A stretch of 64,000 nucleotides of DNA from Brevundimonas vitisensis (lineage in GTDB: Bacteria; Pseudomonadota; Alphaproteobacteria; Caulobacterales; Caulobacteraceae): positions 1 to 64,000 of the forward strand of contig NZ_CP067977.1 in the NCBI RefSeq assembly GCF_016656965.1, read 5' to 3'. Below the pieces are notes generated by a model, which was not told where the DNA came from, made no database searches, and was given only the letters and a program-made list of their open reading frames with translations. The position numbers were made by a program, and so were the translations under genes. Positions 4,235 through 63,143 of the stretch are shown here, one piece after another (positions within the stretch are counted from its first letter, which is position 1; each line of letters opens with the position of its first letter).

Positions 4235-4248
4235 TGGCGGAGAGGGTG
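4235..4248. repeat. Proposed attachment-site copy (14-bp direct repeat)
   Basis: TGGCGGAGAGGGTG is identical, in the same orientation, to 63054-63067, the last 14 bases of the tRNA-Ser gene including its CCA end. It sits 67 bases before the integrase start. P4-family integrases use tRNA 3' ends as targets, so this is read as the displaced att copy. Identity stops on both sides of the 14 bases. Confidence 0.7.
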
Positions 4249-4314
4249 TCCGCCGTATCCCAAGCCTAGCTCGTCCCAATGCGTCCCTTAACTATCTGAT
4301 TTAACGTCTGTCAG

Positions 4315-5607
4315 TTGACAGCAATGTCCATTCTGATCTCCAATCATCCCACGGCTTCGACGCCACGAGTAGGGACTGAAGTAGGGACTGGTTTGGCTAG
4401 ACAGCTGCATCGCTTGGCACCTAGGGCGGCCATCACCACCGCCACCGCGGGGCGCTACGCCGACGGCGGCGGCCTTTACCTCGTCGTAGCTACTTCTGGC
4501 AGTCGCAAATGGGTTTTCAGGTTCCGCTGGAAAGGACGACTTTCAGACATGGGCTTGGGGTCGGCATCAGTTGTCCCACTCAGCCGCGCCCGAGAACGCG
4601 CCGCCGAAGCACGGCTCAAGTTGGCCGAAGGCATCAACCCGCTCGCGGCGAAGCGAGCCGCTCGGTCTATCCCGACTTTCGGACAGTTCGCGGACGATCT
4701 GGTTGAGTCAGTGAAGAGCCAATGGCGCAATGAAAAGCACCAGAAGCAGTTTCAAAGTACGCTGGAACGGCATGCAGCCGACCTGAGGCCTTTGCGATTG
4801 GACGACATAGAGACTGCTCACGTCCTGGACGCACTCAAGCCGATCTGGGCTTCAAACCCGGAGACAGCGTCCAGGGTGAGGGGCAGGATCGAACGCGTCC
4901 TCGATGCCGCTAAAGCAAAGGGCTATCGGTCCGGCGAAAACCCCGCTCGCTGGAAAGGGCATCTTGATCAGCTCTTGCCGAAGCGTGCCCAGCTCACGCG
5001 CGGCCATCATGCGGCGCTTCCGTTCTCAGACGTGCCAGCGTTCATTCAGGATCTAAGGAGCCGTCCGGGCATGTCGGCGCTCGCTTTGGAGTTCACGATC
5101 CTTACGGCGGCAAGATCGGGAGAGGTAAGGGGCGCGACGTGGCGCGAGATCGACCTCGAGAAGAGGGTTTGGACCGTGCCGGCAGACCGCATGAAGGCCG
5201 GTCGCGAGCACCGTGTTCCCATCTCCAAACGCGCTGCTGAGATTCTTGGCCAAGTCGCTCTGCTGGCCGGCGACGATGCTGAAGCCTTCCTGTTCCCGGG
5301 TCCCAAAGGAGCCCGGACATCCCTGTCCGATGCTGCGTTCAGTGCTCTGCTAAAGCGAATGGGGAAGGACGGCGTCCTCACACCGCATGGCTTTCGTTCG
5401 AGCTTCAGAGACTGGGCCGGGGAGACAACAACCTTTCCTCGTGACGTCGCCGAGATGTGTCTGGCCCATGCGGTCGGAGACATGACCGAACGTGCCTACC
5501 GCCGTGGTGATGCTCTTTCAAAGCGTCGCGAGCTTATCGATGCGTGGAGCCTCTATTGCGAGGGAGGAGCCTCGAAGCTCGTCGACGATGCTGAAGCCGA
5601 CCAATGA
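4315..5607 (+). CDS. P4-type tyrosine integrase
   Basis: A 430-residue integrase. The N-terminal DUF4102-like arm-binding domain is recognisable (ADGGGLYLVVATSGSRKWVF near 48-67), followed by a SAM-like core-binding domain and the C-terminal catalytic domain. Catalytic residues appear as Arg in TAARSGEVRG, the HGFRSSFRDW box (H-x-x-R) and the nucleophile Tyr in ERAYRRGD. A TTG at 4315 or the ATG at 4324 could be the start. It directly adjoins the 14-bp tRNA-derived repeat and is the best candidate for integrating the whole island. Its stop overlaps the next frame by ATGA. Confidence 0.93.
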   Translation: MTAMSILISNHPTASTPRVGTEVGTGLARQLHRLAPRAAITTATAGRYADGGGLYLVVATSGSRKWVFRFRWKGRLSDMGLGSASVVPLSRARERAAEARLKLAEGINPLAAKRAARSIPTFGQFADDLVESVKSQWRNEKHQKQFQSTLERHAADLRPLRLDDIETAHVLDALKPIWASNPETASRVRGRIERVLDAAKAKGYRSGENPARWKGHLDQLLPKRAQLTRGHHAALPFSDVPAFIQDLRSRPGMSALALEFTILTAARSGEVRGATWREIDLEKRVWTVPADRMKAGREHRVPISKRAAEILGQVALLAGDDAEAFLFPGPKGARTSLSDAAFSALLKRMGKDGVLTPHGFRSSFRDWAGETTTFPRDVAEMCLAHAVGDMTERAYRRGDALSKRRELIDAWSLYCEGGASKLVDDAEADQ

Positions 5608-5930
5608 AGCGCGGGCGGACGCTCTCGCTTGAGGAGGATCTCGCCCGGATTGATCGGTAGATCGCCAAGCTCGAAGCGAGAGCCGTTCCCTTGCGCGACG
5701 AACTACACGCCATTGAGGACGCGCTTGGCGAACTGAAGAAAAGCCGACAGGCCAAGGAAGCCGGAAGTGCGGGCGGGCGTGCAAAGCGGCAGGCCAAACA
5801 TGACTACGAGAGCGCGTTCAAAACCTATGAAGCGTTGGGCGGCAGGGGCGCCCTAACCGAGACGGCCAAACGTCACGGGATTCCGCTGCGGACGCTTTCG
5901 TGGGCTCTTGACAGGCGCTCTACGGCCTAA
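5604..5930 (+). pseudogene. Small coiled-coil/HTH-like gene with in-frame amber codon
   Basis: The reading frame opens with an ATG overlapping the integrase stop (ATGA) and runs 18 codons to an in-frame TAG (5658-5660). It then continues in the same frame as a charged helical segment (LRDELHAIEDALGELKKSRQ) and ends in a recombinase-like HTH stretch (ETAKRHGIPLRTLSWALDRR). The codon before the break suits CAG-to-TAG decay. A shorter protein could start at the TTG at 5691 (79 residues). This looks like an integrase-associated accessory gene that lost its N-terminus. Confidence 0.55.
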
Positions 5931-6044
5931 AAAGGTCGTCACGACATTGCAATGGAGCGGTTGGCAGGTGTTCTTGCCAGGTCGTGACCGCAGTCTCTCC
6001 CTACCGCACGGGCCATCGCCCGAGCGTATAAAGGAGAGTGTTCA

Positions 6045-6254
6045 ATGCCATCCACCAACCTTCGCCTGGAGCGGCTGCCAGCGGTCGTCGCTCGCACCGG
6101 TATGAGTCGGTCCTGGATCTACAAGGAAGTCGCAGCCGGCCGCTTCCCGAAGCCGTTCAAGGTCGGCGGCGCTTCCGGATGGAGCGCCGCTGCCATCGAT
6201 AACTGGATCGAAAGTCTCACCAGCGGCTCTGCTGCTCAGACGGGGGCTTGCTAA
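6045..6254 (+). CDS. alpA: AlpA family regulator
   Basis: A 69-residue AlpA/prophage-regulatory DNA-binding protein: the winged HTH with TGMSRSWIYKEVAAGRFPKP is highly typical, followed by GWSAAAIDNWIES. In P4-like elements AlpA proteins activate integrase and excision functions. An AGGAG element (in AAAGGAGAGTG) precedes the ATG. Spacing to the following HTH gene is 2 bases or an overlap, so the two are probably co-translated. Confidence 0.88.
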   Translation: MPSTNLRLERLPAVVARTGMSRSWIYKEVAAGRFPKPFKVGGASGWSAAAIDNWIESLTSGSAAQTGAC

Positions 6255-6256
6255 TC

Positions 6257-6448
6257 ATGGCCAACGCACTCCCGGCGCTGCCGCAATTCCTAACCCTTCA
6301 AAAGGTAGCGGACATCCTGGCCGTCTCCGACAAAACGGTGAGGCGGCTGATCGACCGCGGTGATCTCCCGCGACACAAGGTCGGTCGTCAGGTCCGCATT
6401 TCCGAGCGGGATCTTCGCGACTTCATCGCTCTCAGGCGCGGCTTCTGA
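6257..6448 (+). CDS. Excisionase-type helix-turn-helix protein
   Basis: A 63-residue protein with a MerR-like/excisionase HTH: FLTLQKVADILAVSDKTVRR followed by LIDRGDLPRHKVGRQVRISE. Such proteins bend DNA during excision or act as small regulators. The ATG at 6257 is preferred; a TTG nine bases upstream would overlap alpA. It completes a typical island control pair with AlpA. Confidence 0.85.
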   Translation: MANALPALPQFLTLQKVADILAVSDKTVRRLIDRGDLPRHKVGRQVRISERDLRDFIALRRGF

Positions 6449-6592
6449 TGACCCGCCAAGTCCCTGACTGTCCACATGAATTCGACAGTCATTGACTACA
6501 CCCGCACTCAACCGACCCGCGATCCGATCCGTGCTTAATCAAAATTGGCCACTCCCGGCCGCTTCCGACCACCCTGTCCCAAGGAGGGCAAA

Positions 6593-62281: not shown

Positions 62282-62411
62282 GAGGTGCGCATAGCACTCG
62301 TTTTGATCGAAAGCGATGCGGCAATCGCCCGGTCGCGCTTCTGCTGGGACACGCTTCAGGCAACACTGCCAGTCCTATGTAGGTGATGCGAGAGTTCTGA
62401 AACGCCCCAAT

Positions 62412-62435
62412 GTCCGCTTTGGGTCGGGAGCGGAC
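62412..62435. repeat. 24-bp palindromic repeat, copy 10 (reverse orientation)
   Basis: Minus-strand reading is GTCCGC then TCCCGACCCAAA then GCGGAC, close to consensus. It sits near the tRNA end of the island, with degenerate relatives at 62694-62716. Confidence 0.7.
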
Positions 62436-62482
62436 GGTCGCCTGAGGGTGGAAAGCGGACGCTACTCAGCTAAGGTTGTTTT

Positions 62483-62692
62483 ATGGGGTTACCGACATTC
62501 ATCGCGTATCTGCGGACCCTCGGTTGGAAGCTGTGGACGCTGACTGCTCTCATGTTGCTCGCCATATTCTTCTTCTTTGGCTGGCCGTACGGGCTGATCA
62601 TCGTTCCCGTGGTCGGTCTCGCATTGATCCCCGCAGTGAGATTCGGAATGCGGGCGGAAGCTGCGAAGTCCAGGCCCACTGAAGAAAGGTAA
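62483..62692 (+). CDS. Small membrane protein
   Basis: 69 residues, two hydrophobic segments forming a hairpin (LWTLTALMLLAIFFFFGWPY, GLIIVPVVGLALIP) and a charged C-terminal tail. No family known. It is bounded by GTCCGC-type repeats on both sides, as are genes at 24-28 kb. Confidence 0.45.
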   Translation: MGLPTFIAYLRTLGWKLWTLTALMLLAIFFFFGWPYGLIIVPVVGLALIPAVRFGMRAEAAKSRPTEER

Positions 62693-62767
62693 AGTCCGCA
62701 ATGGATCGGTAGCGGAGGGTCGCTGATGGGTGGCTAGCGGACCTACCGCGCTCTACGATCCAGCAGC

Positions 62768-63021
62768 ATGGCACAAGACCAGATTTCCGTTCAGCGACTA
62801 ATGGATCGCTTCCGCGAAGCGTCGAAGGACCTTTTTGATCGGCACATTGATGCGAGTTTGTCGCCGACCGCTTTGGATGGGTTGAAAACACACTGTTCCT
62901 CGTCATGGTGCTCAACTATTTCGACCTAGCCGCGAAAAAGGAAGTGGCGAGTCCCTGCGTCTGCGAGGCTGCTGATAGTCGTTGGGACCAGAGTTGGTAC
63001 CCACTCGCCGAGTTCTACTAA
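62768..63021 (+). pseudogene. Possible frameshifted hypothetical gene at the island end
   Basis: From the ATG at 62768 a helical start (VQRLMDRFREASKDLFDRHI) is followed near 62880 by a change of frame that continues as VENTLFLVMVLNYFDLAAKK and ends at 63021. The two parts read as one protein with one indel. No family recognised; it lies 32 bases from the tRNA 3' end. Confidence 0.35.
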
Positions 63022-63053
63022 GGTACTGTATAGTAACACTATCTCAGAAGAGG

Positions 63054-63143
63054 TGGCGGAGAGGGTGGGATTCGAACCCACGGTACCCTTCCAGGCACGC
63101 CGCATTTCGAGTGCGGTACATTCGACCACTCTGCCACCTCTCC
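63054..63143 (-). tRNA. tRNA-Ser (anticodon CGA), island target
   Basis: 90 bases. Acceptor arms GGAGAGG and CCTCTCC, a long variable arm as in class II tRNAs, T-loop GTTCGAATC, anticodon stem CCGCA/TGCGG with loop CTCGAAA (anticodon CGA), and an encoded CCA end. Its last 14 bases (63054-63067) recur at 4235-4248, which marks it as the integration target of the island. Confidence 0.95.

Follow-up and report, generated by a model that had tools for sequence, protein, structure and literature searches.

A 58.8-kb metal-resistance island at the tRNA-Ser(CGA) gene of Brevundimonas vitisensis and the attachment sites of its P4-type integrase family

The first 64,000 nucleotides of the Brevundimonas vitisensis contig NZ_CP067977.1 (hereafter, the window) contain a 58.8-kb island, which was most probably inserted at the 3' end of the tRNA-Ser(CGA) gene by its own P4-type tyrosine integrase. 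According to this interpretation, the integrase gene is located at the end away from the tRNA gene because the attachment (att) core usually faces that way in this integrase family, elements move between serine isoacceptor genes by rewriting of an overlap sequence, and the island was built by serial accretion. The island is ordinary in kind; what is notable is the att anatomy found across the integrase family and a pair of elements with near-identical integrases in two different isoacceptor genes.

Two same-strand copies of the 14-bp sequence TGGCGGAGAGGGTG, at 4235-4248 and 63054-63067, form an exact direct repeat, and the sequence occurs exactly twice in the whole single-contig genome (2,976,716 bases), which verifies the repeat that the first-pass annotation had proposed as the link between the tRNA gene and a site before the integrase. 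ARAGORN predicted an intact tRNA-Ser(CGA) gene at 63054-63143 on the minus strand, and the right copy is therefore the last 14 bases of this gene (the proximal att core). The left copy, on the plus strand, is read as a detached copy of the same 3' end, that is, the distal att core (attR), on the basis of the repeat and its recurrence in relatives. Directly after the distal core, at 4249, lies TCCGCC, the inverted partner of the first seven bases of the core. The integrase frame (4315-5607, plus strand, 430 amino acids, with a mechanically called TTG start) begins 66 bases past the left copy, and its matches to the Pfam families Arm-DNA-bind_3, Phage_int_M and Phage_integrase agree with the earlier assignment of a P4-type integrase beside the left repeat. 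Residues R267, K294, H358, R361, H385 and Y395 are invariant in a 9-row alignment and are read as the putative catalytic set. The tRNA-Ser genes of the TGA and GGA types in this genome were also confirmed by ARAGORN, and the 14-mers of the TGA, GGA and GCT types each occur only once in the genome, so that no displaced fragment of these genes was seen.

This layout resembles that of the islands described in the Islander report, whose ends are marked by a tRNA gene on one side and a displaced 3' fragment of it on the other, with the integrase located inside and the crossover between the T stem and the acceptor stem (PMC4383910). The intact tRNA gene, the same-orientation displaced fragment and a tyrosine integrase inside the interval are all present here, and the span between the repeat copies is within the 2-200 kb length range of such islands.

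Relatives of the integrase were sought in 131 genomes of the genus (numbered with G below; loci are numbered with L) and were found in 114 of them (E 0.001 or better). Among 21 genomes inspected closely, 12 of which had been picked for an integrase near the tRNA gene, seven have the identical 14-mer both before the integrase and in tRNA-Ser(CGA), with the integrase distal and in the same orientation: G002 (54.4 kb between the 14-mers), G042 (59.7 kb), G103 (13.9 kb), G067 (12.3 kb), G113 (10.8 kb), G098 (10.0 kb) and G129 (28.0 kb). A related integrase lies directly beside the intact tRNA gene in G060, G058, G048, G006 and G028. Same-strand pairs of 14-mers that bracket an integrase were also found in a pattern scan of 20 chosen genomes, in which distances were obtained by subtraction and the loose pattern also produced chance hits (control counts of up to 4 per strand in a genome): GGA-type pairs in G022 (7.3 kb), G113 (8.8 kb), G037 (30.2 kb), G074 (30.3 kb) and G026 (47.9 kb), a GCT-type pair in G102 (54.5 kb), TGA-type pairs in G037 (117.4 kb) and G013 (141.7 kb), and a CGA-type pair in G097 (85.9 kb). 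The tRNA ends of eight of the nine scanned pairs were retrieved, and each of the eight proved to be the expected tRNA-Ser gene.

We compared nine left flanks, including that of the window, with 43 partly overlapping tRNA-flank sequences from a subset of the 131 genomes. Clean empty-site counterparts in another genome were obtained for three of the nine. The left flank of G129 corresponds to DNA directly beside tRNA-Ser in G039 (96.1% along 1,501 bases that reach the core), that of G067 to the tRNA-Ser flank of G004 (81.7%, beginning 176 and 149 bases away from the core), and that of G098 to the tRNA-Ser flank of G018 (71.6%, 140 and 140 bases off the core). The left flank of G113 matched only at an offset of at least 3.2 kb and that of G042 over 133 bases only, and those of G002, G103 and G088 had no match among the 43 sequences. 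These counterparts, together with the recurrence of the repeat-integrase-tRNA layout in the seven relatives, support the earlier proposal of integration at tRNA-Ser(CGA); the comparison with island-free genomes suggested there, which would be decisive although Islander does not call for it, succeeded for three related islands but not for the window's own left flank.

Integrases usually adjoin the tRNA gene, and the distal position of the present integrase had been regarded as the less usual orientation. Among its relatives the opposite was observed. We examined 70 rows (68 of the top 70 relatives, without G005:C52 and G128:C1:1753218, plus G006 and G028), and an exact 14-nucleotide tRNA 3' end was found within 700 bases upstream of the integrase in 61 of them, as a detached copy in 50 and as part of an intact adjacent tRNA gene in 11. 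One row, G022b, duplicates G022a instead of covering the integrase at C10:77697, which leaves 69 different integrases and 49 different detached cores in the set. The distal integrase is thus the commoner arrangement in this family. The 50 detached cores correspond to tRNA-Ser of the CGA (14), GGA (11, one of them the repeated row), GCT (9) and TGA (4) types, and to tRNA-Ala(CGC) (5), tRNA-Arg (4) and tRNA-Asn (3). In a wider set of 80 loci from named genomes, 28 had a detached exact copy, another 18 had a tRNA gene within 700 bases upstream, and two were too short; L215 and L231 in this set are members of the genus already counted, and the tRNA neighbours of L274 may not be its target. The polarity was clustered in a tree of 67 rows, with five changes for the proximal class (10.4 in shuffles) and 11 for the distal class (16.7 in shuffles). 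The tree was made without G022b, G084 (a close twin of G085) and the partial G028, G053 was labelled by its adjacent tRNA gene, and eight unlabelled rows raise the change counts.

The core of the detached class consists of TGGCGGA, seven further bases and TCCGCC, forming an imperfect inverted repeat around a spacer; in the serine isoacceptor genes seen, TGGCGGA is common and the seven-base spacer differs. In 54 of 91 sites, the right arm was the reverse complement of the left at five or more of the seven positions, compared with 2.4% for shuffled flanks, and the mean score was 4.66 of 7 against 2.01 when shuffled, while the tRNA body itself scores 1 of 7. The 91 sites include 15 with a single mismatch to the tRNA library; when L215 and L231, which duplicate G035 and G078, are taken out, the count is 53 of 89.

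Similar integrases were found with cores of different isoacceptors. The integrases of G010 and G013 are 98.5% identical over 399 amino acids, and a single-base difference between the two cores makes one fit tRNA-Ser(CGA) and the other tRNA-Ser(TGA). The integrase-side arm is almost unchanged between the two, the tRNA side agrees at 60 of 60 bases, and an alignment of 11.75 kb that starts from the integrase end shows 89.6% identity (the two ends of the G010 element are on different contigs). The left flanks are unrelated (25% in 60 bases). The integrases of G022 and G014 (93.4% identical) have GGA and GCT cores, and those of two elements within G113 (92.6% identical) have CGA and GGA cores. In all, different isoacceptor cores were seen in three of the five distinct integrase pairs with at least 90% identity. 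The G010/G013 pair is a natural experiment on the change of an integrase target. In this genus, one integrase family uses the various tRNA-Ser genes in common as docking sites.

We propose that the integrase would bind the inverted pair made of TGGCGGA, the 3' end of the acceptor stem common to the serine tRNA genes seen, and the element-borne TCCGCC, and that the 7-nucleotide overlap between the arms would have to pair with the target. Because the overlap differs between serine isoacceptors, its rewriting from the target could allow an element to enter a different tRNA-Ser gene while the integrase stays the same or nearly so. We infer that such rewriting may proceed by heteroduplex repair, by analogy with the excision of GInts, islands with three integrases, for which it is reported that the att site of the element is altered through repair of a 6-nucleotide heteroduplex (PMC5385486). 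Accessory blocks would have been added serially, including to the left of the present left end. A broader claim is about as likely as not: that the family has a second att polarity, which changed few times, and that this one family addresses the whole serine tRNA set through TGGCGGA and its partner, with the 7-nucleotide overlap as a rewritable address, so that targets could change without evolution of the protein.

The switching of tRNA targets by integrases is already known; the Islander report describes it as frequent (PMC4383910). What differs here is that the integrase is distal and that switching is seen among near-identical integrases at single overlap bases. Among archaeal tyrosine integrases, related enzymes are likewise reported to target many different tRNA genes, with switching kept within tRNA classes with or without a supplementary loop (PMC8371274). 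The present enzymes are bacterial and P4-type, and their switching is mostly within serine isoacceptors, with the Ala, Arg and Asn targets in other branches. A search of the open literature, mostly without full texts and with thin coverage of subscription papers, gave no recognised report of this integrase family or of such a pair.

Several observations weigh against the proposed reading. Nine of the 70 rows had no exact tRNA 3' end, and 32 of the 80 wider loci matched neither class with the tRNA library used. The inverted arm scored below five of seven in 37 of the 91 sites, in some at only 1. The far ends of the proximal-class islands of G033 (L286) and G130 (L287) have GGGCGC instead of TCCGCC after the core, and these two cases hint that the anatomy of the core may not be the same in both polarity classes. 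Finally, comparison of positions 1200-4300 with the 131 genomes revealed no empty-site counterpart of the window's left flank.

In the comparison of nine flanks, the window's left flank matched G042 alone, in pieces between -3887 and 3220, the nearest of which ends 3.4 kb from the tRNA gene, and the G042 counterpart sits inside that genome's own integrase-tRNA interval. A similar block lies in opposite orientation inside the 30-kb interval of G074. Because the counterparts lie inside these islands, the sequence to the left of 4235, which is in part accessory, probably represents earlier cargo, and the tRNA-Ser(CGA) site looks as if it grew by accretion. The first 4,234 bases of the window carry DUF892, zinc alcohol dehydrogenase and polyketide-cyclase-like genes, and the position of the dehydrogenase block varies across the genus, with two cases inside tRNA-Ser islands. 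Immediately to the left of the window (L063, 6965-19717) are genes for CtaG, COX2 with cytochrome c and COX1, together with one for a Crp-type regulator, whose frame runs to the end of the contig; these cytochrome oxidase genes extend the respiratory theme beyond the island.

The surrounding chromosome is, by these comparisons, rearranged, and this raises the alternative that two separate islands, joined by deletion or rearrangement, supplied the integrase end and the tRNA end, in which case the 58.8 kb would never have been one mobile unit. Segments at 63-68 kb and at about -180 to -169 kb adjoin each other in G002 and G041. In G030, G033, G036 and G037, the backbone from -36 to -29 kb is found across the tRNA gene, at a distance of about 50 kb. 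No empty site of the window was found when this backbone was used, and the DNA beside the tRNA gene of G041 matched only tRNA genes in the present genome. The cargo also bears on this alternative: positions 47283-56755 match DNA adjoining tRNA-Ser(CGA) in G088 at 94.6% identity, yet the CGA-type core of G088 is accompanied by another integrase (46%) on another contig, and a TGA-type core belongs to the integrase in G088 that is most closely related to that of the window. This suggests that cargo passes between islands, with contig breaks leaving the G088 pieces unlinked. Against a fusion stand the matching cores at both ends and the comparable spans in G002 and G042, and we consider it improbable. 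The earlier remark that the island may be composite finds support in ends that are conserved between islands whose cargo differs.

Three tyrosine recombinases are encoded at the left end: the integrase, a 567-amino-acid recombinase (6545-8248, plus strand) and a 348-amino-acid recombinase (8299-9345, plus strand), the latter two assigned by Pfam Phage_integrase. The module is collinear in G002 (4315-9326) and G088 (4368-9354). GInts, with up to 70 kb of cargo that includes metal resistance, likewise have short direct repeats and, at one end, three tyrosine recombinases, and it could be asked whether the three enzymes jointly move the element as a ginABCD-type module. In GInts, three contiguous recombinase genes (ginABC) at one end are accompanied by ginD, whose small TnpC-like product is essential for recombination, and the targets are ssb or an ABC-transporter gene (PMC5385486). 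Here the target is a tRNA gene, the first recombinase is P4-type with an Arm domain, and two small frames separate it from the second; the likeness is one of layout and not of compared gin proteins. One intervening frame encodes a small protein (6248-6448, plus strand; Pfam HTH_17), a possible excisionase or regulator judging from its domain. The 567-amino-acid recombinase has eight matches in only seven of the 131 genomes (E 1e-30 or better), each after an integrase of the same family (in G103 the integrase match comes in two pieces), as opposed to 114 genomes with integrase relatives, and islands with the same ends were mapped in eight other genomes without needing this protein. It is an optional companion of the integrase, and joint action of the three enzymes seems unlikely. 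No relaxase or type IV secretion match was found with Pfam among the 60 window frames searched (some small frames lie outside the search), and the island does not appear to be an integrative conjugative element as marked by those genes.

It is extremely improbable that the 14-mer in front of the integrase has nothing to do with the tRNA gene and that the region lacks a common boundary: two-mismatch copies do occur in the window at 15758, 30670, 41027 and 59715 (six matches with up to two mismatches in all, against a mean of 1.08 expected), but none of 100 dinucleotide shuffles of the window contained two exact copies, only two occur genome-wide, and the recurrence before the integrase in relatives refutes it. 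A shorter element ending at an inner near-copy was likewise rejected, since all four are, by coordinates, more than 1 kb from the recombinase frames; the search for further copies proposed earlier thus yielded no additional att copy. The ends of this island of metal-resistance and respiration genes are fixed to the base.

The cargo predicted earlier was largely found: copper, arsenic, czc-like, Mrp and respiratory genes are present together with the three recombinases, but of the mercury (mer) genes only a regulator and a membrane protein that is MerT-like by eye were seen. The MerR-family regulator (26407-26901) scores below the MerR equivalog cut-off, the membrane protein (26919-27302) has no Pfam match, and a cysteine-rich frame follows at 27269-27514; among the window frames searched (27269-27514 is outside the search) there was no merA or merP match, and no full mer operon was found. 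The copper cluster (42457-52600, minus strand, profile matches) encodes a CopA-type multicopper oxidase (42457-44352), CopD (48148-49062), CopC (49067-49483) and a copper-type P-ATPase (50189-52600), as well as a sigma factor and a Metal_resist protein; unrelated plus-strand frames lie within its span at 45816-47972. The arsenic cluster (53991-56667, plus strand) contains Pfam matches for ArsC, an SBF-family (ACR3-like) transporter and an ArsH-like FMN reductase, and its plasmid match H12 is named arsB/ArsH. A czcA-like resistance-nodulation-division pump (57505-61876, minus strand) has its inner-membrane gene split over the overlapping frames 57505-58287 (ACR_tran 775-1018) and 58284-60677 (ACR_tran 1-752), and its membrane-fusion protein (Pfam HlyD) is at 60680-61876. 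The Mrp-type antiporter cluster occupies 30476-36443 on the minus strand, with Proton_antipo_M, MnhB, MbhD and MbhE matches covering 31583-36443.

A frame for an alternative oxidase (15183-16577, minus strand, Pfam AOX) probably has a later true start, because the AOX domain is at residues 246-437. The gene adjoins those of a sensor kinase and a response regulator (16035-18105, plus strand; HisKA, HATPase_c, Response_reg and GerE), and the oxidase matches Sphingobium plasmids at 84%. In the G002 island, an inverted counterpart of the block at 15048-18105 (84%) is located close to the tRNA end. A plasmid origin of the cargo was considered and rejected, as matches were partial (at most 9% of the query) and none exceeded 90% identity. 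Other genes include a Glu_synthase-domain protein (11595-13193, minus strand) and, at 18988-23332, a cation exchanger, a carbonic anhydrase, a LysR regulator and a bicarbonate transporter (Sbt_1), all assigned by Pfam; the frame at 9823-10263 has no Pfam match. Two short tyrosine recombinases (Pfam), of 210 amino acids (28596-29228, minus strand) and 229 amino acids (56749-57438, plus strand), lie in opposite directions and are 79% alike over 670 bases, and relatives of both are present in the integrase-tRNA intervals of G002 and G042. Diverged direct copies at 13910-14784 and 38593-39472, 24.7 kb apart, span Rnk/GreA-like genes (71% and 85% in two stretches). Two short inverted-repeat pairs, at 25518-26020 and 62409-62742 (52 nucleotides at 92% and 58 nucleotides at 71%), are rich in GTCCGCTTT/AAAGCGGAC and have the appearance of dispersed intergenic repeats.

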